Virus record (IMG/VR): IMGVR_UViG_3300013188_000003
Span: 1 to 34,661 of that record
DNA length: 34,661 bases
Origin: a virus
Reading direction: 5' to 3' (one strand)
The position numbers and the translations under genes were made by a program. Below, piece by piece: positions 5,769 to 34,661 of this stretch; the first letter of the stretch is position 1, and each line of letters starts with the position of its first letter. The notes beneath the pieces were generated by a model. The model did not search any database, had not been told where the DNA came from, and saw only the letters and a list, made by a program, of their open reading frames with translations.

Positions 5769-6299
5769 TTAAACCTCATTACCCCAAGAATCCCAACCAT
5801 CTACTTTTTCTCTTGCAAATAGTTCTATTTTTTTTTCTTTTTTATCATAAGTTTTTGCAATCATATCTCTAAAAAAATCAGGTTTTTTGCTATGATAACT
5901 TCTTGGCAATTCCCACCAGCAAGTATCATGTTTGATTAAAGCATTCTGCACACCTTTATAAGCAAGTAACAAATATTCAGCATTAGTAGTAAAAGTTCCA
6001 CCCAGCCCCAATCCTCTTGGTTTTTTTGCCCAAATTAAAGTTGTGCTATATTTAAAACCCCAAGCATTAATTACATCAAAAGACTCTTTTAAATATTTGT
6101 TTATAGTCCATAAATATAGCTTGCAATTTTTTTCTGATATATCCCTCACAGGTAAGTTTTTTATATCTTGTATTGTCATTGTTGGATATGGTAATGGTCT
6201 TGTCTTGCCATTAGAGTTCCAATCACAACCTCTTTTCACATCCCAAGCAGGGTCAGCATATATGATGTTATATTTTTTATTAGGAAATGGTATCTGCAT
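5769..6299 (-). CDS. MT-A70 family adenine DNA methyltransferase
   Basis: A 176-aa enzyme. NIIYADPAWD (residues 11-20) is motif IV, a DPAW variant of DPPW; LPYPTMTIQDIKNLP, KLYLWTINKYL, ALIWAKKPRGLGLGGTFTTN and AEYLLLAYKG follow in MT-A70 order, ending with an IELFARE segment. Such phage enzymes methylate N6 of adenine using S-adenosylmethionine and may protect phage DNA from host restriction or modulate timing. Length is typical. The ATG overlaps the preceding microprotein stop as TAATG. Specificity cannot be read from sequence. Confidence 0.88.
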   Translation of the reverse strand: MQIPFPNKKYNIIYADPAWDVKRGCDWNSNGKTRPLPYPTMTIQDIKNLPVRDISEKNCKLYLWTINKYLKESFDVINAWGFKYSTTLIWAKKPRGLGLGGTFTTNAEYLLLAYKGVQNALIKHDTCWWELPRSYHSKKPDFFRDMIAKTYDKKEKKIELFAREKVDGWDSWGNEV

Positions 6300-6563: not shown

Positions 6564-6711
6564 GATTATTCTCCTTATAAGAAACCATGCCTAGCTTCAG
6601 CAATAGCTGAGTAGCAGATTCAATATTCATATTATTTGTAATTGCAAACACTTTGATATCCTTATGTAATTCTTCAGGAATCCAAAGTGCCTTTTTTGTT
6701 TTTTCGTCCAT
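6550..6711 (-). CDS. Ribbon-helix-helix-like small protein (53 aa)
   Basis: ATG at 6711 is preceded by GGAGAGTCATT. The product MDEKTKKALWIPEELHKDIK continues VFAITNNMNIESATQLLLKL. The pattern (short strand ALWIP, helix EELHKDIKVFAITNN, turn, helix IESATQLLLKLG) fits ribbon-helix-helix DNA-binding proteins of the Arc/CopG type. It heads the methylase/nuclease/SSB run and could autoregulate it. A possible -10 TATAAT lies just upstream near 6730-6735, without a clear -35. Confidence 0.65.
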   Translation of the reverse strand: MDEKTKKALWIPEELHKDIKVFAITNNMNIESATQLLLKLGMVSYKENNHGSA

Positions 6712-6738
6712 AATGACTCTCCACTTTTTATATTATAT

Positions 6739-6843
6739 TTAATTTGATAATAAAGCTAGAACTTTATTACCTACTCTTCCAAAAACCCTTATACTTAGTT
6801 CAAGGGCAATTGATAAACTCTCCATAAATCTAAATACTCTCAT
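6739..6843 (-). CDS. Possible 34-aa peptide
   Basis: An open frame from ATG 6843 to TAA 6739 fills the gap between the RecE-like gene and the RHH gene. The product (MRVFRFMESLSIALELSIRV and onward) is an amphipathic, net basic helix. The ribosome site is poor (GTAAGGGC about 11 bases upstream); an internal ATG is also possible. Without it, 6712-6861 would be the largest noncoding gap in this region, probably a promoter region for the genes below. Confidence 0.3.
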   Translation of the reverse strand: MRVFRFMESLSIALELSIRVFGRVGNKVLALLSN

Positions 6844-6861
6844 ATATCTATTTGCCCTTAC

Positions 6862-7692
6862 TTACAACACCAAATCCACAACATTAGGACTATTGTAAAT
6901 ACTTAGAGGTTTACCCTTTTGATATTCTTTATAATCATTCAGATATTGCTCCATCATAGTCCAGCCATAATCCATTTGTTCTTTTGTGATTCTAAATACT
7001 TTAGATGCAAAAGGTTGTACTTTCTCTTGGGCTATGAATAAGAAATCAGTTACTTCATATCCAGCCATCTCAACTCCTCTTCTATAATAAGCAGCTTGCA
7101 TATCATAGCCATACTTCTTAACTGAATAATTAAAAGCATGAGGTTCGCAAGATATAGTAGTTTTATAATCTATAACAACTATCTTGTTATCTGAATTAGG
7201 CTCATCTAAAGGCGGACACATAACATCAGGTCTACATTTACATAGCACATCATCTTCATACCAATAGATGCTTGCTTCAGGTATCTTGCCAGTTGCATTT
7301 AAATAAGCATTACCCTCATATATCATATTCTCTTTCATGCCAGTAATAATCTCAGCTTCATCTTCTTTTAATACTATGAATCCCTGCTCTTCATATTCAG
7401 CCTTCTCTTCTTTATATGCTTTGGTATAAGGAGAACCTGTAAGCACCCTGACTTCTTTATCAAATGCTTCTTGTCCTTCTACTAATAAAGAATGTGCTGC
7501 TGTTCCAAACTTTAATGCTGGAGTAGATTCAGAAGTATGATTAACTGCATGAAGTTGGGATTGCCCAAACCTTCTAACATAACTACTACTGATTCCTACA
7601 CTTGCATGATAATCCTCGTTGGGTAAGTCTTTATAAATAAGAGCCTGACCTTTTTGCTTAGATTCAAAGTTCTTTAATGATTCTATTTTCAT
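6862..7692 (-). CDS. RecE-like exonuclease (PDDEXK_12 / DUF3799)
   Basis: A 276-aa enzyme with GGAG upstream of ATG 7692. It starts like exodeoxyribonuclease VIII C-terminal domains (YKDLPNEDYHAS.GISSS), then KFGTAAHSLLVEG (H67), CKCRPDVM (D156), KIVVIDYKTT (D175, K177) and GYDMQAAYYRRG, the catalytic order of the RecE/lambda-exo PD-(D/E)XK group. It should degrade one strand of duplex ends and yield single-stranded tails for annealing or strand exchange. No clear annealase is next to it, so the SSB-like protein or a host protein may be the partner. Confidence 0.85.
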   Translation of the reverse strand: MKIESLKNFESKQKGQALIYKDLPNEDYHASVGISSSYVRRFGQSQLHAVNHTSESTPALKFGTAAHSLLVEGQEAFDKEVRVLTGSPYTKAYKEEKAEYEEQGFIVLKEDEAEIITGMKENMIYEGNAYLNATGKIPEASIYWYEDDVLCKCRPDVMCPPLDEPNSDNKIVVIDYKTTISCEPHAFNYSVKKYGYDMQAAYYRRGVEMAGYEVTDFLFIAQEKVQPFASKVFRITKEQMDYGWTMMEQYLNDYKEYQKGKPLSIYNSPNVVDLVL

Positions 7693-7907
7693 TCTTTATA
7701 CTCCAATATCTTTGTTGCATATTTTTGTAATACTCTAAATCCAGTTGGTTGCTTTTCAACAAAATTAGCAACACCTTTAGAATTCATCCTGTATTTTCTT
7801 GACATAGCCTGATAAGTGCTAATTTTTGTAGCACCAACATTTAAGTATTCATTAACTTCATTTGTAATAATACTTCTAGCTTTTTCTATTTCACTTGCAC
7901 TTATCAT
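7689..7907 (-). CDS. Hypothetical, possibly HTH-containing protein (72 aa)
   Basis: Four-base overlap with the RecE-like gene. The protein has a helical first half (ASEIEKARSIITNEVNEYLN) and a STYQAMSRKYRMNSKGVANFV segment resembling a helix-turn-helix, then LQKYATKILEYKE. No family recognised. Its position directly before the exonuclease and coupling to it suggest a regulator or accessory of recombination, but this is inference. Confidence 0.6.
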   Translation of the reverse strand: MISASEIEKARSIITNEVNEYLNVGATKISTYQAMSRKYRMNSKGVANFVEKQPTGFRVLQKYATKILEYKE

Positions 7908-21444: not shown

Positions 21445-22049
21445 TAGGTTATAACCTCTCTAACATCAAATGAAATACTATAAAAACCACTAGCATCTGT
21501 TGAATACATAATCTCATTATTTTCAAGATAAACAGTGAAACTAGGTTTGTTTACAGTAACAGCTTCATTATCTGCTAGAGATGCTACTAGATTTGGTGAT
21601 ATTAGAACAGTTAATGCTCCACTACCATCAGAATCAATATCTGATTGAACCATATAGACTTTACTATGATTGGCAAACTTAATTATATCACCAGCTTTTA
21701 AAGCACCTGTCTGACTAGCTGTAAAGCCATCTAAGGCTATAGAAGCATCTCCTGATGTATGTGCTCCAACTACCTGAATATCTGTTTCTGACTTGCCTGC
21801 ACCTAAATTATCTAATGGTGCAACTATAGTAAAGTCCTCAAAAGAACCCTTTTGTTTTTGTAAAAATGCAAATACTTCTTGAGCCTTTTCTTGTTGTAAA
21901 GGTGGCATTTGCACTGTAAAAGAAAAATATTGACTCCCTATTTGTCTGACTTGTTTTTTACCTGATAAAGTCTGATTCAATAAAGTAGGTCTATTATCTT
22001 TAAAATTTAAACTTCTAAAATTAGGAGATGTTGGAAATTGTCCTGACAT
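21444..22049 (-). CDS. Distal tail protein-like minor tail protein
   Basis: A 201-aa beta-rich protein directly after the tape measure gene. MSGQFPTSPNFRSLNFKDNR then QIGSQYFSFTVQMPPLQQEK, a middle domain LDGFTASQTGALKAGDIIKF and a final SGFYSISFDVREVIT. I recall this FP.(S/T).F..L.....RP.(L/F) opening from minor tail proteins of marine lambda-like phages. By position it corresponds to lambda M/L or the distal tail ring. Sure it is a tail protein, less sure of the exact ring. Confidence 0.65.
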   Translation of the reverse strand: MSGQFPTSPNFRSLNFKDNRPTLLNQTLSGKKQVRQIGSQYFSFTVQMPPLQQEKAQEVFAFLQKQKGSFEDFTIVAPLDNLGAGKSETDIQVVGAHTSGDASIALDGFTASQTGALKAGDIIKFANHSKVYMVQSDIDSDGSGALTVLISPNLVASLADNEAVTVNKPSFTVYLENNEIMYSTDASGFYSISFDVREVIT

Positions 22050-23785
22050 TATACGACTCCCATTTTGCCTTGATTATTCATGGCATTGTTTATGATTGAT
22101 GTTATTAATCCTTTTCTTGATGCTAATAACTGGTCAAATCCAGCAGCATCTACTGTTGATATATTGAAGTTTACTGTAGCACCCATGCTTTGACCTTTAG
22201 TGTGGTCAATAACAGTTTCATTTGGATGAACCATAGCTAATTTACCACCACGACCATCTAAACCACCTGCTCTTGCTCCCATACCTGTATAACCACCACC
22301 TTCAAAATTTTGAAATCCATCAACAGCACTACCAACATTAGCTAATGTATCACCTATATTGCCACCACCAATAAAAGCTCTAAAAGGGTCAACAATTTTA
22401 GCTATAACTAATTGTTGAATTGCTACTCTTATTAATTGTTCTACAACATAATCTGCAAAATCTTTAAATGCTAATTTTCCAGTCTTTATACCCTCAACTA
22501 TTGAATCCTCAAATTTTTTCATTGAATTAACTGCTATTGAATCTAAAGACTTTCCAACTTCATCTAAAGAATTTTTATATGCAGTTAATGGATTCATTGC
22601 ATCAAACATAGCATCAGCAGATGCTTTAGTTCCATTAGTTAGTTTATTAGTAGAATCAATTAAATCATCTTCTGTAATTTTTAAATCAAGCAATCCATTA
22701 GCTAATGCATAAGCCTTATCTCTAAACTCAGTATTACCCTCAATTAATTCATTTGTTTTTATAGCAAGTTTTGCTTGTGCTTGAATCAAACCTATTTCCA
22801 TTGCTGTTGCTACAGCTTTTGTTGCAGGTAAAAGGTCTATTATTTTTTGTGCAAAATTAGCAAACTTTAAAGTCATGTTAGGCAATAAAGTGTCTAAATT
22901 TACTGATAAGGTTGCTAATGATAATTGAAATTCTCCTAATGCTTTTATTGCAGAAGCAACTCCTTCTATAACTGCATTAGCAATATTCATACCCAATTTA
23001 TCAAAACCACCAGCAGATTTTTGTATCTCTTCAAATCTTTCAGCTATCATTTTTTGCATTTTTTCTAATGCTGGTAAAAAAGCAGTTGTAATATTATCTC
23101 TAACAGCTTTTACTTGCATACCAAGTACACCAATAGCATCATTAAATGCTTCAGTTCTTCTAATAACTTTTGTTGATAATATAATCCCTAAATCTTCTGC
23201 TCTTTGTATAAATCCATCTAAACCTCTTTCAGATAAATCTTCTATAGCACTAGTAAGTAATATACCCTGTCTACCAAATAAATTTGCTAAAGCTGTAGCC
23301 TTTTCAGTTTGTGAGCCTAGCTTTGAAATACCATCTGCTGTTTCAGCTAATATTTGGTCTGTAGTTTTATAATTACCAGCAGCATCTACTAATTCAACAT
23401 TAATAGCTCTAAATATATCTTGTTGTGTCTTTAATCCTCTTTGAGCATCACCGACACTTCTTGCAAATTTTTCTAATGCTTTATTAGCACCCTCTATATT
23501 TGTTCCTGATTCTCTAGCAGCTAAATGGAATGCTTGTATAGTTGAAGTTGCAATACCAGTTCTTGTTGCTGTCTTGCCAATAGCATCAATAAAATCAAAA
23601 GATTTTTTAACAAGTATAGTTAAAGCACCTGCTGTAGCTGTTGCAGCTAAACCAACACCTGCTACACCTTTAGATGCTGTTGCAGCAGCTCCACCAACAG
23701 TTTTTAATCCTTTGGTAACTTTATCAAAAGCTGCCTTAGTCTTATCTACTGCTGTTAATTCAAACTTTACCTTTTTATTTGCCAT
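22049..23785 (-). CDS. Tape measure protein
   Basis: A 578-aa protein. The N-terminus (KVKFELTAVDKTKAAFDKVT then KGLKTVGGAAATASKGVAGV) and ATRTGIATSTIQAFHLAARE are typical of phage tail length tape measure proteins; hydrophobic stretches near 40-60 and 270-340 and a conserved KLAFKDFADYVVEQLIRVAI region near 445 follow. C-terminus has GGYTGMGARAGGLDGRGGKL, a lambda-H-like motif. It is short for the family, so the tail should be short to medium (roughly 80-90 nm by the usual 1.5 angstrom per residue rule). ATG lies 4 codons before the end of the frameshifted chaperone. Confidence 0.9.
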   Translation of the reverse strand: MANKKVKFELTAVDKTKAAFDKVTKGLKTVGGAAATASKGVAGVGLAATATAGALTILVKKSFDFIDAIGKTATRTGIATSTIQAFHLAARESGTNIEGANKALEKFARSVGDAQRGLKTQQDIFRAINVELVDAAGNYKTTDQILAETADGISKLGSQTEKATALANLFGRQGILLTSAIEDLSERGLDGFIQRAEDLGIILSTKVIRRTEAFNDAIGVLGMQVKAVRDNITTAFLPALEKMQKMIAERFEEIQKSAGGFDKLGMNIANAVIEGVASAIKALGEFQLSLATLSVNLDTLLPNMTLKFANFAQKIIDLLPATKAVATAMEIGLIQAQAKLAIKTNELIEGNTEFRDKAYALANGLLDLKITEDDLIDSTNKLTNGTKASADAMFDAMNPLTAYKNSLDEVGKSLDSIAVNSMKKFEDSIVEGIKTGKLAFKDFADYVVEQLIRVAIQQLVIAKIVDPFRAFIGGGNIGDTLANVGSAVDGFQNFEGGGYTGMGARAGGLDGRGGKLAMVHPNETVIDHTKGQSMGATVNFNISTVDAAGFDQLLASRKGLITSIINNAMNNQGKMGVV

Positions 23786-23927
23786 TGTTTCGTTTCTCTT
23801 CAGCTAACTCTAAGTAAGCTATCCATCCTTGATATTCTTGGACGCTAATTTGTTGAATCTCTTGTAAGGTTTTACCAAGTTTTTCAGCTAGTGCGTATTG
23901 CACATATAAATTAGAGTCCTTTATTAG
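23775..23927 (-). CDS. Tail assembly chaperone T-domain, expressed by -1 frameshift
   Basis: After the slippery site the -1 frame runs LIKDSNLYVQYALAEKLGKT, then LQEIQQISVQEYQGWIAYLE and LAEEKRNNGK, ending at TAA 23775-23777, just inside the tape measure gene. It has no start codon of its own. The L..S.....Y.LA.KLGKT..E......EY.GW.AY.. pattern is that of lambda gpGT T-domains in many siphophages. The fused product would be about 161 aa and would recruit tail tube subunits to the tape measure. Confidence 0.8.
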   Translation of the reverse strand, partial: LIKDSNLYVQYALAEKLGKTLQEIQQISVQEYQGWIAYLELAEEKRNNGK

Positions 23928-24259
23928 TTTTTTTTCGTGTCCTCAATAGGTTCTTGACCCATAATTTGAGTCGCTACGCTAACTAATATCTCTCTATCAA
24001 CACTGTTTAATAAAGCATTTTTATCTGCTAAATCAAATAGTTTATCTCCATTTTCATCTAGTGCTTTGTAAATAAGAACATAAGCCATCATCGTTAAATC
24101 ATCTTCTTTACTCATTTTATAGAGCTTAGAAGTTTCAGCTAACGTCAATGGCTTACTGTATATTTTAAGAGGTTTATTCTCATCACCCCATTCAGGCACT
24201 TCGATTACTTTTACATCTTGCTCTGCAAAATGTTTCTTTGCGTTATCTATTGCTGACAT
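23924..24259 (-). CDS. Tail assembly chaperone (lambda G-like)
   Basis: A 111-aa acidic protein: VKVIEVPEWGDENKPLKIYS, then KPLTLAETSKLYKMSKEDDL and a helical LFDLADKNALLNSVDREILV end. This is the usual siphophage G-type chaperone located between the tail tube and tape measure genes. Its final codons ACG AAA AAA AAC TAA contain the frameshift site that yields the longer GT product. Both proteins coat the tape measure during tail assembly and are absent from virions. Confidence 0.85.
   Translation of the reverse strand: MSAIDNAKKHFAEQDVKVIEVPEWGDENKPLKIYSKPLTLAETSKLYKMSKEDDLTMMAYVLIYKALDENGDKLFDLADKNALLNSVDREILVSVATQIMGQEPIEDTKKN
23927..23933 (-). promoter_or_regulatory. Slippery heptamer A AAA AAC for -1 ribosomal frameshift
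   Basis: The minus strand reads ACG AAA AAA AAC TAA TAA; the in-register heptamer A AAA AAC is a canonical X XXY YYZ slip site and the zero-frame stop follows at once. A -1 slip opens the 50-codon T-domain frame. Location between G-like chaperone and tape measure matches the classic lambda arrangement. Confidence 0.85.
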
Positions 24260-24816: not shown

Positions 24817-25257
24817 CTATACTGCTACATCAGGATTAGTTTCCTGAACATAGTAATTTGTTAAAAAGGTTAAACTCACATATCCTAGTGGTTTTTCACC
24901 TTCACCATTAAACTCTATTTCTGTTGATTCTAAATAACAGTCTTTAGCTAATCCATCTAAAGTTCTATCTGCTGCTATTGCTTCTTCAACTTCTTTTGAT
25001 ATTGTATCAATAGTATCATCAAAGTCACTAGTAGCTTTTGCATATCCTTCTACTACTACTGATAATTCTCTACTCATAACCCTATCAGTACCTATAACTA
25101 TTGGTTCAGAAGTTTCTGACTTAGTATAGATAACTAATGCTGGTACTGTTTCTAATGGATAAACCCTTGACTCATAAACTCTTGAACCAGTCGTAGTTAA
25201 ACCAGTTAAAGTAGTTCCAAACTTTTCTCTTATTTGTTGTCTTATATGATTTGCCAT
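24817..25257 (-). CDS. Tail terminator, U-like
   Basis: A 146-aa protein: MANHIRQQIREKFGTTLTGL, VYPLETVPALVIYTKSETSE, SRELSVVVEGYAKATSDFDD, TISKEVEEAIAADRTLDGLA and YLESTEIEFNGEGEKPLGYV. This order matches lambda gpU-type tail terminators, which cap the tail tube and join it to the head. Position between the FII-like genes and the tail tube supports the call. Notably no gpZ homologue separates it from FII here. Confidence 0.78.
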   Translation of the reverse strand: MANHIRQQIREKFGTTLTGLTTTGSRVYESRVYPLETVPALVIYTKSETSEPIVIGTDRVMSRELSVVVEGYAKATSDFDDTIDTISKEVEEAIAADRTLDGLAKDCYLESTEIEFNGEGEKPLGYVSLTFLTNYYVQETNPDVAV

Positions 25258-25607
25258 TATATTTCCTCTAACATTAATGCACTGAAACCTGTTCTATCTG
25301 CTTGTATATTAACAACAGTATAACTTTGTGCTGCTTTGAGTATATTACCATTTGTATCTTTTATTGCAGATACATCTAATCTATTTCCAAATGCAATATT
25401 TGGTACATCTATAGTTCTGCAATAGGCTATTGGTTTTAATGCTTCTACACCAATGCCTTCTTCTTGTTCTACATATTCATTATTTAAAATAATATTAATT
25501 GTTGTAGAAGTACCTGAATTTGTATAAACAGCAGAAACCCCATGACCAAAATTAATATCTAAATATCCAGCCATATCTAATTCAGTTTCTAATCTAAATT
25601 GAGACAT
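25257..25607 (-). CDS. Head-tail joining protein FII-like, second copy
   Basis: A 116-aa protein homologous to the one encoded just upstream (25607-26008): shared DxxxYxDxxxGHGVxA, INII...EY, the DVP.I...(D/N).L.V.AI block, GN(V/I)LK and TG..(S/A)L.LEE. The family fold is that of lambda FII/phage attachment proteins, which stopper the portal and bind the tail. It lacks a roughly 25-residue insertion present in the first copy. The two ATGs sit in TAATG overlaps. Which copy makes the joint, or whether both do, cannot be told. Confidence 0.65.
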   Translation of the reverse strand: MSQFRLETELDMAGYLDINFGHGVSAVYTNSGTSTTINIILNNEYVEQEEGIGVEALKPIAYCRTIDVPNIAFGNRLDVSAIKDTNGNILKAAQSYTVVNIQADRTGFSALMLEEI

Positions 25608-26008
25608 TATTCTTCCTCTAACACCAAAGAAACTAAACCTGTATTATCAGGTTCAACTGTTTTAACAACAAATGTAGTTGTTGGTTTTAAAACATTACCT
25701 TTATCAGTTGTTATTGCATCAACTCTTAATTTATCTTGTTGAGATATATAAGGTACATCAGATGCTTTAACTATTGCTCTTGGTTGATAACCAGCAACAG
25801 GAACAGTACCACCTTCTATATTGAAATATTCTTGGTCAATGATGATATTAATATTTTTAGAGAATCCTGAATCAATATCAAAAAGGGTATCTATTAATGG
25901 GAAGTCATCCCATAAAGATTGTTGGACTTCAAAGAAAGTGGCAGTAACACCATGACCTGTTGTTGTATCAACATAGGCGTTAAAATCTAATGCACTCTCT
26001 AAAGGCAT
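25607..26008 (-). CDS. Head-tail joining protein FII-like, first copy
   Basis: A 133-aa protein: LDFNAYVDTTTGHGVTATFF, an insertion with SLWDDFPLIDTLFDIDSGFS, then NINIIIDQEYFNIEGGTVPV and NTGLVSLVLEEE. GHGV(T/S)A with the Phage_attach/FII-like layout supports a head-tail joining role. By eye about a third to two fifths identical to the next gene. The tandem pair follows the small gene after the capsid, as FII does in lambda. Confidence 0.65.
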   Translation of the reverse strand: MPLESALDFNAYVDTTTGHGVTATFFEVQQSLWDDFPLIDTLFDIDSGFSKNINIIIDQEYFNIEGGTVPVAGYQPRAIVKASDVPYISQQDKLRVDAITTDKGNVLKPTTTFVVKTVEPDNTGLVSLVLEEE

Positions 26009-31486: not shown

Positions 31487-33307
31487 TTATTTCCAAGAAG
31501 TAGCGAAATTTCCTCTATTTATACCTCTTTGTGGTCTATTTTGTGGTTTTTCTCTTGGTTTTGACTCTTGGGTAAGTATTTTATTCTCAATAGAGTCATA
31601 GTTAGGATTCAAGATATAGATAGCAGCAAAGTTATATACCAACGTATCTAATGCTTCGTTTCTTGGTCTTACTTGCTTCCAAACTAGCGTTTTCCTACCT
31701 CTTACAAACTTTGTGATTCTTTTTTCTGCTGTAAGCTGCTTAAAGTATTCTTCATCTAAGTCAGAGCAGAAATGCAAAGTAGTATTTTCAGGTTCAGTAG
31801 ACAATCTAGCAAAAATAGCTTCTTTTGCACTATCAGAACCAACACCATAAAGAACAGCTTTATTCTTTCCAACAAATGTAGGTCTATTTGCTATTGGTTT
31901 ACCAGCTTGAGATAAACCTTTAATTGCAAAGATTCTTCTAGCTTGTCGTGGTTTAGTAAATTGATAAACCATATTGGTATGATGACCACCTGAGTCAATC
32001 GTGCAACATGATATAGGTATTAATCTTTCTGATTCAGTTTTAAATCTTTTCTTTAGATAAGCATCTAAATCATTCCAAACATTCATAGCATTTGGGTCAC
32101 CCCAAAATATCTTGTAATCACAAACCCATGCTTCATAATTCTTACCCCATCCCACCAATTGCAGTTCCAACCTATCCTTCTGCGTATCAATACCAGCAGT
32201 TAAAACTAAAACATCTTCAGGAATAGTTGTGTAATCATAATTCAATCTACGTTCTAGTAATGTTTCATATTCAACAGCTTCACCTTGTTCTTCCCAAGAT
32301 TCACCAAGAGCAGTATTAATCCAAGTCTTTAGCATCTCAGGATTCTTTTTAGCTTCAAGAAATGATTTAGCCATATCTGCCCAAGTAGACCAAACTGAAT
32401 ATAGTTCTGATATATGAAATCCTGCTGTATCTGATTTAGGTGCTGATGCAATCCATTCACCATGTTTTAACATCCATTGTTTTTTTGATTCATCTATTAC
32501 TGAACCACAATGTTCGCAAGCATAAGAAGCTGTTTCAGGTTTGTCTTCATCCCAAACTACATTCTTCCATTTAAGAACTTGACTCTCATTACATTCAGGA
32601 CAAGGAACATGGTAGTAGCGTTTATCTGATTCTTCAAAAGCAGTTTCTATTCTTGATAGTCCTTTGATTGTAGGAGTAGAACACATATATATCTTTTTAT
32701 TCCAAAAGGTAGTTGTTCTTTTAGTTGCAAGTGATATTGGGTCACCTTCTGCTCCTGCTGATTGTTCGTATCTATCAACCTCATCAGCTAATACAATTCT
32801 AATTGGTCTTGATGCAAGTCCTGATGCAGAATTAGAACCAACAATGTTTAGATTACCACCTGCAAACTTTTTAGATAAAACTGTATTTCCTGAATCACGA
32901 CTTCTTGGGTCTTTTACACAATCTCTTATCTTTTCAGAATCTCTAATCATAGTAGCAAGCCTATCTTTACTAAATGCTTGTGCCATTTGCAAAGTAGGTT
33001 GCATGATTAGCATTGGAGCTGGGTCTTGGTCTATGTAGTAACCAATGACATTTAGTAATATCTCAGTTGCACCAACTTGAGCAGATTTCATAAATACTAT
33101 TCTTTGTATATCAGGGTCATTGAAAGAATCCATTATCTCTCTTTGATAAGGTGCTCTATCAGTTCTCCATGCTCCTGCTTCTGCTGAAGATTCAGGAGAT
33201 AAACGTCTATAGTTATCTGACCAGTCACTAATCTTCAGATTGGGTGGTGGAGTCCATGTCTGATTCGTCTCCTGTATCACCTTTTCTATATTTTTGAGGT
33301 ATTCCAT
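31487..33307 (-). CDS. Terminase large subunit, lambda gpA family
   Basis: A 606-aa packaging motor. ATPase: VFMKSAQVGATE (residues 72-82, the Walker A variant used by gpA-type enzymes), LIMQPTLQMAQAFSK, and Walker B IRIVLADEVDRY near 169-180. CSTPTIKG follows as coupling motif. A zinc finger CPEC...CEHC lies near 235-265. The nuclease half starts near VLTAGIDTQKDRLELQLVGW. It translocates DNA into the prohead and cuts at genome ends. Its first 80 bases overlap the small subunit gene. The gpA family normally cuts at cos sites. Confidence 0.93.
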   Translation of the reverse strand: MEYLKNIEKVIQETNQTWTPPPNLKISDWSDNYRRLSPESSAEAGAWRTDRAPYQREIMDSFNDPDIQRIVFMKSAQVGATEILLNVIGYYIDQDPAPMLIMQPTLQMAQAFSKDRLATMIRDSEKIRDCVKDPRSRDSGNTVLSKKFAGGNLNIVGSNSASGLASRPIRIVLADEVDRYEQSAGAEGDPISLATKRTTTFWNKKIYMCSTPTIKGLSRIETAFEESDKRYYHVPCPECNESQVLKWKNVVWDEDKPETASYACEHCGSVIDESKKQWMLKHGEWIASAPKSDTAGFHISELYSVWSTWADMAKSFLEAKKNPEMLKTWINTALGESWEEQGEAVEYETLLERRLNYDYTTIPEDVLVLTAGIDTQKDRLELQLVGWGKNYEAWVCDYKIFWGDPNAMNVWNDLDAYLKKRFKTESERLIPISCCTIDSGGHHTNMVYQFTKPRQARRIFAIKGLSQAGKPIANRPTFVGKNKAVLYGVGSDSAKEAIFARLSTEPENTTLHFCSDLDEEYFKQLTAEKRITKFVRGRKTLVWKQVRPRNEALDTLVYNFAAIYILNPNYDSIENKILTQESKPREKPQNRPQRGINRGNFATSWK

Positions 33308-33752
33308 TTTGAGCTAACTCGTTTAGTGCTTCATGCACTTGTTCTTTTATTATTAATTCTGCTTCAGCATACTTATCTACAGTAATTACTTGATGTGCGA
33401 TTCTTGATGGTAGCCCTAATAGCCTTGCTCTAGCATTAGCTACATAATCAACCCAAGTATCTTCAACTAATTGTGCTGGTATTAGGTTGCCTTCTAATTC
33501 CTCTACTTCTAATTCTGCTTTTCTAGCTTGAGCAGCAGTAAGTTTAGTTTTTTCTTCTGCAATATCACCAGTACCACTTCTTTTGTGATAACCACCTAGC
33601 TTTCTAAGGTACGAAATGTATGCAACTCTGCAAACATCTATATTTAGAGGACTTCTACCCTGTTTTGAGGGAAAGATACCATCTCTAATGAGTTCTGAGA
33701 CTCTTTTGACTGATAAATCCAAATGGTCTGCAACTTCTCTTTGTGTAGCCAT
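33228..33752 (-). CDS. Terminase small subunit, lambda Nu1-like
   Basis: A 174-aa protein. Residues 1-40 (MATQREVADHLDLSVKRVSE then LIRDGIFPSKQGRSPLNIDV) form the winged helix-turn-helix of Nu1/gpNu1-type subunits; a helical oligomerisation region LTAAQARKAELEVEELEGNL and RARLLGLPSRIAHQV follow, with an acidic Ser/Thr tail. It binds the packaging site and recruits the large subunit. The ATG is 93 bases from the Z-like gene, where cos would lie. Its first 67 bases recur at the left contig end. Confidence 0.9.
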   Translation of the reverse strand: MATQREVADHLDLSVKRVSELIRDGIFPSKQGRSPLNIDVCRVAYISYLRKLGGYHKRSGTGDIAEEKTKLTAAQARKAELEVEELEGNLIPAQLVEDTWVDYVANARARLLGLPSRIAHQVITVDKYAEAELIIKEQVHEALNELAQNGIPQKYRKGDTGDESDMDSTTQSED

Positions 33753-33843
33753 ACAGTGCGTTTATTACCCTATTAGATTTGGACTGTCGCTAGAAAAAAA
33801 CTGTGGTCGCGAATAACCCACGTTGAATGCTGTAGAAGAACCT
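33686..33843. repeat. Right partner of the terminal redundancy (matches 1-158)
   Basis: Carries the start of terS and the gap upstream of it. Differs from 1-158 at about three bases, none in the terS codons. Together with 34441-34661 it brackets version B of the Z-like gene. Confidence 0.9.
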
Positions 33844-33844
33844 A
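33753..33844. other. Second copy of the terS upstream gap (candidate cos region)
   Basis: Counterpart of 68-159. The sequence ctgtcgctagaaaaaaactg, then gtggtcgcgaataacccacg is kept apart from single-base changes, although the neighbouring gene has diverged almost completely. Conservation of a noncoding stretch between two diverged haplotypes supports a functional site. Confidence 0.3.
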
Positions 33845-34444
33845 TCATTTGCCAACTACCCTCTTCAGGTTCTTATTTAATATCTTATCCATATTCTTTT
33901 GCACAACACCCTTAACTGTTTTATAGAACTCAATACGCTTTCTATAGAATACTGAATTTTCAAATGCAACTATGAGCTTTAACTTAGGATTACGTTTTCC
34001 ACCTACTCTTCTCCATACACCATCAATACCTTTAACGTTACCCATAAACTCAGTGTTTCTTTTGATTAATCCAGTTCTTTTACCTTTTATATTACCAAAT
34101 GCATTGATCTTAGCCTTGTCTACTGGTACTGGTATCTTATTCTTCTCAGGTAATCTAAGACCACCTTCAAATTGTTTCTCTAAATACTTAGCTTGTATAT
34201 CAGGTATGAATACTAATGCTGATAAGACTCTTGCTTTAGCTTTAAATAACTTAACACCTGTATATGTAAACTTAGTTGGTTTATCTAACTTCTTAAGTAA
34301 TTGTGATCTCATAGCGTTAACTGACTTAACACCAACCTCATTGATTGAATCGCTAACTATCTCAGGCATATGCTTCTTCTGAAACATACCTAACTTCTTT
34401 TCTAATTCTTTAGCATTAGTTTTAATATCAATACTTACAGTCAT
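33845..34444 (-). CDS. Minor tail protein Z-like (variable locus, version B)
   Basis: A 199-aa counterpart of the protein at 160-777; ATG 34444 is preceded by GGAGAAAGGG and overlaps the HTH stop (ATGA). LDKPTKFTYTGVKLFKAKAR, LVFIPDIQAKYLEKQFEGGL and INAFGNIKGKRTGLIKR then GNVKGIDGVWRR fit the minor-tail-Z pattern even better than version A. The two proteins share roughly a third of residues by eye, mostly in the FGNI-to-VAF.NSV block, and the DNA between the flanks is barely alignable. Most likely an alternative allele of one locus rather than a second gene in the same genome. Confidence 0.65.
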   Translation of the reverse strand: MTVSIDIKTNAKELEKKLGMFQKKHMPEIVSDSINEVGVKSVNAMRSQLLKKLDKPTKFTYTGVKLFKAKARVLSALVFIPDIQAKYLEKQFEGGLRLPEKNKIPVPVDKAKINAFGNIKGKRTGLIKRNTEFMGNVKGIDGVWRRVGGKRNPKLKLIVAFENSVFYRKRIEFYKTVKGVVQKNMDKILNKNLKRVVGK

Positions 34445-34599
34445 CCCTTTCTCCAGTGTGATTGTGTTTGAAACTTTAGACCTAATGCTTTAGCCTTTCT
34501 TCTGATCGTAGATGGATGCACATCATAAGTCATAGCAATATCATGTGATGATTTACCTTCCTTAATCTTCTGTTCTAATTTTTGTTTATCTATCTTCAT
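34441..34599 (-). CDS. 52-aa helix-turn-helix protein, second copy
   Basis: Same protein as at 774-932 with A for E in KAKALGLKF. Several base changes near the Z-like end are mainly synonymous, which indicates selection on the protein. Both ATGA overlaps are conserved. Confidence 0.75.
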   Translation of the reverse strand: MKIDKQKLEQKIKEGKSSHDIAMTYDVHPSTIRRKAKALGLKFQTQSHWRKG

Positions 34600-34661
34600 A
34601 AGTTCTCGTAATGTTCTATTAACTTATTAATATACCAAACAGACTTCTGTAAGTCTTGTAT
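34596..34661 (-). CDS. DUF3310 protein, partial second copy (C-terminal 21 aa)
   Basis: The frame encodes IQDLQKSVWYINKLIEHYEN then L and TGA, identical to the end of the gene at 929-1147, truncated by the contig end. It overlaps the HTH ATG by ATGA as in the other copy. Confidence 0.9.
   Translation of the reverse strand: MQDLQKSVWYINKLIEHYENL

Follow-up and report, generated by a model that had tools for sequence, protein, structure and literature searches.

The IMG/VR virus record IMGVR_UViG_3300013188_000003 (34661 bases, classed as linear and referred to here, in its full length, as the window) carries one locus at both of its ends, each time with a different allele of a gene that we call X. 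The record probably represents a single siphophage genome of about 33.7 kb with cohesive ends, sampled as two genotypes, in which X would encode a plug matched to the N-terminus of the tape-measure protein (TMP) and the allele at the right end would come from a sister genotype.

The two ends of the record hold the same locus

When positions 1-994 were compared with the whole record by BLAST, they matched 33686-33854 (98%) and 34441-34661 (95%) in unchanged order and strand, the sole patch between the two flank matches being 71% identical over 111 bases. Direct alignment of the end copies gave 4 mismatches in 169 positions (~98%) for the left flank and 11 in 221 (~95%) for the right flank, and the core between them comprised 367 identities, 157 mismatches and 142 gap positions. 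The X proteins encoded by alleles A and B are 34% identical over 202 residues (E=2e-35), which identifies them as homologues and not as a chance match. The initial annotation had described 1-994 and 33686-34661 as a single locus with near-identical flanks around a strongly diverged gene, and both its coordinates and its description of X, poorly alignable as DNA and recognisable as protein, agree with these alignments.

The order at both ends is a cut terS start, a short spacer, X, a 52-aa HTH gene and a DUF3310 gene, all encoded on the minus strand. Allele A (positions 160-777, ~205 aa) is the final gene before the right cohesive end, and allele B (33845-34444, 199 aa) represents the second genotype. 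The terS gene (33228-33752; phrog_57, E=3e-32) is the first after cos, and its start recurs, truncated, at 1-67. The HTH gene at the A end (774-932), named for its HTH matches, has a stop that overlaps the X start and forms the inner edge of the exchanged cassette; the B-end copy (34441-34599) is 95% identical to it. The DUF3310 gene (929-1147; PF11753, E=2e-18) belongs to the common flank and recurs as a cut copy at 34596-34661. Two stretches are strictly identical between the ends, 1-107 with 33686-33792 and 34556-34661 with 889-994 (106 bases), and are taken as overlaps of a graph join; runs of 107 and 106 bases would be expected if the assembly graph had used k-mers of about 105.

X resembles tail-completion proteins

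Most long-tailed phages cannot do without a tail-completion protein. Both X alleles match PHROG 1924, 'minor tail protein' (E=7e-27 for A and 5e-28 for B), and allele B additionally matches phrog_27, 'tail completion or Neck1' (E=6e-5). The lambda Z protein itself matches phrog_1924 (E=2e-4), and the X homologue of the Dinoroseobacter phage R4C weakly matches PF06763, the family of lambda gpZ. In the Pfam profile search X remained below the PF06763 cut-off, and NCBIfam returned nothing for X or for the HTH gene. AlphaFold models of good quality (pLDDT 84 for A and 83 for B) display the same strand order and a long C-terminal helix in both alleles, with differing N-terminal helices. The A model found eight matches in BFVD (E 2e-14 to 7e-4), where several further matches carry names of the HK97 gp10 family or of tail components; a Foldseek search of the X model against the PDB gave no solved-structure match. 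Judged by profiles and predicted fold, X is a divergent tail-completion protein of the Z/HK97-gp10 type, with a predicted role within the virion in head-tail joining or DNA routing, in keeping with the Z-like tail gene of the initial annotation.

The usual, though not obligatory, position of a tail-completion gene is not the one occupied by X, which lies beside cos. In the window, the head-closure (Hc1) genes at 25257-26008 directly adjoin the terminator gene at 24817-25257, leaving the usual Z slot between them empty, as expected if X is a displaced Z. The Hc1 region itself consists of two adjoining homologous gpFII-like genes, probably an old duplication. Elsewhere in the window, positions 5769-6299 encode an MT-A70 family methyltransferase (PF05063) that is missing or diverged in most relatives.

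Relatives in IMG/VR comprised 28 proteins at 82-99% identity to allele A and 20 at 78-97% identity to allele B. One X homologue, in an otherwise long genome record (G018, contig C1, 24334-24990), contains a single in-frame TAA stop.

A linear genome with cohesive ends of 13 nt and X as its last gene

A 13-nt cohesive end, GGTTATTCGCGAC, lies at 121-133 at the A end and at 33806-33818 at the B end, in both cases on the minus strand and at the same position relative to the X stop and the terS start; right ends of relatives stop after this cosN sequence and left ends start with it. In more than 15 IMG/VR contigs, obtained from different samples, the sequence breaks off right after ...GGGTTATTCGCGAC, 42 nt beyond the last codon of X, and the terminal sequence ...TTCGCGAC is found in many independent relative contigs. 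In contig L027 (4970-4986), ...TTCGCGAC is followed by AGATCGGAAGAGCACA, an Illumina adapter, so the physical genome end is directly marked there. On the opposite side, many contigs begin exactly at GGTTATTCGCGAC or a variant of it, 66 nt ahead of terS. Right and left contig ends thus have 13 nt in common, as expected of filled-in 5' cohesive ends, and some other relative contigs continue through the joined cos site. This coincidence of contig ends at 13 nt on both sides, together with a TerL of the gpA type, fits cos packaging.

Because the contigs of relatives end at the shared 13 nt, we conclude that the genome is a linear cos genome with X as its last gene and terS as its first. The circle of ~33.7 kb proposed by the initial annotation stands as a single passage round that length; the virion genome is linear, and the closure is a cos-to-cos join within the locus.

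The cohesive-end sequence after X varies among relatives (L131, L134, L116, L145, L162 and others) and differs between X classes: GGTTATTCGCGAC occurs in all A and mostly in B loci, and GGTAATTGGACAG in most loci of class X02. Linkage and function are both possible reasons for this distribution.

Longer relatives carry one copy of X

More than 40 longer relatives with an X match carry exactly one X each, a count that rests on the records with such a match (25 of 28, 17 of 18, 3 of 16 and 6 of 12 records, a few of them searched twice). A SAR86 single-cell contig likewise has one copy. The diverged tandem duplication that had been considered as an alternative would require one molecule with both X genes, either at its two termini or with everything from terS through DUF3310 between them. 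Its attraction is that both copies stand within a single contig, but every longer relative carrying X has one copy, the copies of the window sit exactly at the contig ends and coincide with the 106-107-base overlaps, and cos lies inside the repeat; we regard a true duplication as extremely improbable. A k-mer graph of two genotypes that have a backbone in common and diverge between HTH and cos would instead yield just such a contig, entering through allele A, leaving through allele B and overlapping by 107 and 106 bases.

Hardly more credible is a B end created by a chimeric join to an unrelated phage. That allele B pairs with another tape-measure type does indicate another genotype; yet for terL, portal, terminator, tube and Dit the B-carrying relatives G011 and G012 have the backbone of the window (95-99%), its terS side runs unbroken from B through cos, and contig L009 has allele A next to a 96%-identical terS region. 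A join to an unrelated genome was rejected, since B alleles occur on the same backbone elsewhere. An exact 31-mer of allele B matched only two short contigs, both ending at cos.

The proposal that the ends are two alleles of one locus is borne out, with the qualification that they are not equal partners, because the TMP and chaperone of the window are of the type associated with A. As the window has a type 1 tape measure, allele A is its natural partner and B derives from the sister genotype, which is predicted to carry a type 2 tape measure.

The SAR86 single-cell contig (L523, contig C4 of G072, 50-72.7 kb) joins ~50 kb of host chromosome to a phage relative with contiguous X, cos and terS. 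No integrase was recognised in it, and it is either a prophage or an amplification chimera. It suggests SAR86 as the host.

X is exchanged as a cassette between near-identical genomes

With a cut-off of 70% identity, the X proteins of 124 loci form about 30 classes, the larger of which are 24-64% alike. Contig pairs that are 96-100% identical on both sides of the gene have X proteins just 30-47% alike. Between contigs L017 (A) and L086 (B), where X is at 36%, identity reaches 97.8% in the downstream 3.9 kb and 99.2% in the upstream 367 nt; the flanks of L085 and L101 are 97.9% (5.5 kb) and 95.4% (4.1 kb) identical with X at 47%, and those of L131 and L134 are 95.5% (4.0 kb) and 96.7% (3.1 kb) identical with X at 41%. 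The cassette edges are sharp, lying within ~30 nt of the X start and stop codons: between L017 and L086, identity per 30-nt bin is 93-100% until ~30 nt from the X start and 97-100% from the stop onward. Near-identical upstream flanks also precede classes X02, X06, X10, X11, X19 and X20.

The swapped cassette of the initial annotation is thus a true exchange, but its neighbours-stay-identical picture needs correction, as the tape measure and chaperone, 10 kb away, tend to change along with X. Exchange itself is observed in these pairs, and its route may be recombination in the conserved HTH gene and the cos region. Since X lies at the genome end, a single crossover combined with cos joining would be enough.

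Some relatives have additional genes around this site. An extra gene of ~300 aa with a CxxC-rich start lies between X and cos in L014 (3867-4711) and L030 (2740-3648), and pieces related to it precede DUF3310 in L030 and L083. Its nuclease-like appearance by eye raised an HNH or homing-type nuclease as a candidate driver of exchange, which was rejected when Pfam and NCBIfam returned nothing for the L014 gene. The B-allele genome of L083 also has, between cos and a diverged terS (53%), a 382-aa gene (6701-7849) that resembles a ParB/methyltransferase fusion by eye. Contig L111 (3300046171_000025; 31.6 kb), with terS internal and the DUF3310-HTH-X-cos segment missing, is probably a misassembly.

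The type of X goes with the type of the tape measure and chaperone

In the window, the TMP gene (22049-23785, minus strand; N-terminus MANKKVKFELTAVDKTKAAFDKV) matches tape-measure PHROGs with E-values down to 2e-33, and the tail assembly chaperone gene lies at 23924-24259 on the same strand (phrog_344, E=8e-9); both are of type 1, the type found with A-like X. In the B carriers G011 and G012, identity to the window is 95-100% for terL, portal, one Hc1, terminator, tube and Dit, and drops to 55% for the chaperone and to 31-32% for the tape measure.

Across 39 genomes, X identity correlates with that of the TMP (r=0.54) and the chaperone (r=0.45; p=0.0002 each). The correlation with the adjacent HTH gene (r=0.42) was put down to linkage, two replication genes nearer to X reached 0.27-0.31, and those with terS and terL were weak (0.16-0.17). 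No correlation was found in these genomes for the head-closure, terminator, tube and Dit genes or for DUF3310 (r between -0.03 and 0.09). Partial correlations after controlling for eight virion and packaging genes were 0.51 (TMP) and 0.44 (chaperone). The type 1 chaperone is present in 16 of the 17 genomes with A-like X and in none of the 12 with B-like X (Fisher 2.5e-7), and the pairing is also seen inside one backbone cluster.

On the backbone tree, types are concordant in 30 of 34 cases; simulations in which they evolved independently gave P=0.0002 with fitted rates and 0.005 when the rates were cut to a tenth, and the Pagel likelihood ratio is 20.5 (p=0.0004). A crude parsimony count of X and chaperone switches on the same branch found two shared among 8 and 9 (p=0.30), with arbitrary state placement and tie-breaking. 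The X type itself is distributed nearly at random on this tree, with 11 changes against 13.8 for shuffled labels.

Along the TMP, the correlation is strongest at residues 1-50 (r=0.59) and falls to r=0.06 at the conserved C-terminus, although poor alignment of the middle part may partly create the N-terminal peak. Among A-like genomes alone TMP identity does not follow X identity (r=0.11), and the match therefore concerns types. The pairing is broken or blurred in five genomes (G015, G021, G039, G044 and G047), and it is respected by the SAR86 single-cell relative, found through terL alone, which has a B-side X with type 2 chaperone and TMP. Type 2 TMPs have an N-terminus like MATDYKLRIKAQD, and all TMP types open, by eye, with a strand-like and then a helix-like segment (MANKKVKFELTAVDKTKAAFDKV; MATDYKLRIKAQDQSKKGFNSV), as in the complex of phage 80-alpha. 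At the level of association, X covaries with TMP and chaperone and not with the genes of the wall. That versions of X and of the tape measure go together suggests that the two proteins fit each other.

Discussion

We favour, as the likely explanation, a sample that held two genotypes of one phage differing beside cos, from which a contig would have been closed through cos and read slightly more than once. X would have left the usual slot, flanked by head-closure and terminator genes, for the far right end of the linear genome. Its product would sit as a plug within the head-end of the tail, bind the TMP trimer at its N-termini and hold the DNA end. Since X must, on this model, fit the TMP N-terminus, X and the chaperone/TMP pair would be inherited as matched sets though 10 kb apart; the covariation is observed, and the contact is its proposed cause.

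The model for this arrangement is the neck of 80-alpha, where a single copy of the tail-completion protein sits inside and its beta-hairpin is extended by strands of three TMP N-termini (PMC11661146). The protein binds TMP residues 1-37, touches DNA above and makes few contacts with the neck wall (PMC11661146). Minimal wall contacts combined with TMP N-terminus binding in this neck plug, gp51, match the covariation pattern of X; the evidence there is structural and comes from one Staphylococcus phage with headful packaging, whereas for X it is population-genetic and comes from marine cos phages. Lambda particles lacking gpZ look normal and are mostly non-infectious, which has been ascribed to misplaced DNA. 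In phage T5 the tail-completion protein has been placed at the tail tip (PMC11784142). Pairing of X with the tape measure and not with the wall is what the 80-alpha arrangement predicts, and makes a location at the tip less likely for this group.

X and TMP might also covary without touching, if both act in DNA delivery and are sorted by the same host factor, such as an inner-membrane or periplasmic injection protein. Tape measures do work with host membrane proteins during injection, as cited for HK97 in PMC10276861, SPP1 particles without their completion protein lose DNA outside the cell (PMC11099176), and the predicted hosts of the relatives differ (PMC12629253). We nevertheless consider this unlikely, because the tip and Dit genes, which should track the host, reach only r=0.09-0.18, and because the signal peaks at the very end of the TMP that 80-alpha sets against the completion protein. 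Less plausible still is that X and TMP simply mark two lineages unrecombined at both places, so that the pairing reflects history and not fit. Some backbone structure does exist, terL correlating with X at r=0.40 inside one cluster; against this stand the near-random placement of X types on the backbone tree, an association that outlasts the eight-gene control and the tree-based tests, and the little or no pairing of terS and DUF3310, which are nearer to X. A fit between X and the tape measure thus remains our preferred reading.

Compared with known systems, X resembles lambda gpZ (PF06763), HK97 gp10 and SPP1 gp16.1 in weak but consistent profile matches, in its length of ~200 aa and in predicted fold. 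Those genes lie between head-closure and terminator genes, unlike X at the far right beside cos, and X differs further in having at least 12 classes exchanged among near-identical genomes. A similar gene order is seen in Cronusvirus (Dinoroseobacter phage R4C, gene 49; Rhodobacter phages RcCronus, RcRhea and RcSaxon), whose last gene is homologous to X (36% and 28-29%) and lies at the right end with terS first, as in the window; in R4C, terS starts at 85 and the X homologue ends 46 nt short of the genome end. We know of no allele exchange of this gene in Cronusvirus. The text of the R4C cryo-EM paper, which reports 12 structural proteins, mentions neither gp49 nor a minor tail protein. The nearest cultured relatives by terL (49%) are the CRP-822-type marine phages, which have a similar genome size and whose low-GC members are predicted to infect SAR86; a cos end and allele exchange like those of the window are not described in the available part of that work (PMC12629253).

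Tentatively, the plug X beside the DNA end and the TMP/chaperone pair could form a co-adapted two-locus kit that recombines independently of the shell among otherwise near-identical phages, and cosN variants may travel with X, which would keep plug, DNA end and tape measure matched. The two-genotype reading accounts for a class of seemingly duplicated contig ends in metagenomes. As to the disputed location and contacts of tail-completion proteins, at the neck in 80-alpha (PMC11661146) and at the tip in T5 (PMC11784142), natural swapping in marine phages gives an independent answer, in which the plug goes with the tape measure instead of with the proteins of the tube, terminator, head closure or Dit, and it provides dozens of natural X/TMP pairs in which the proposed contact can be tested.
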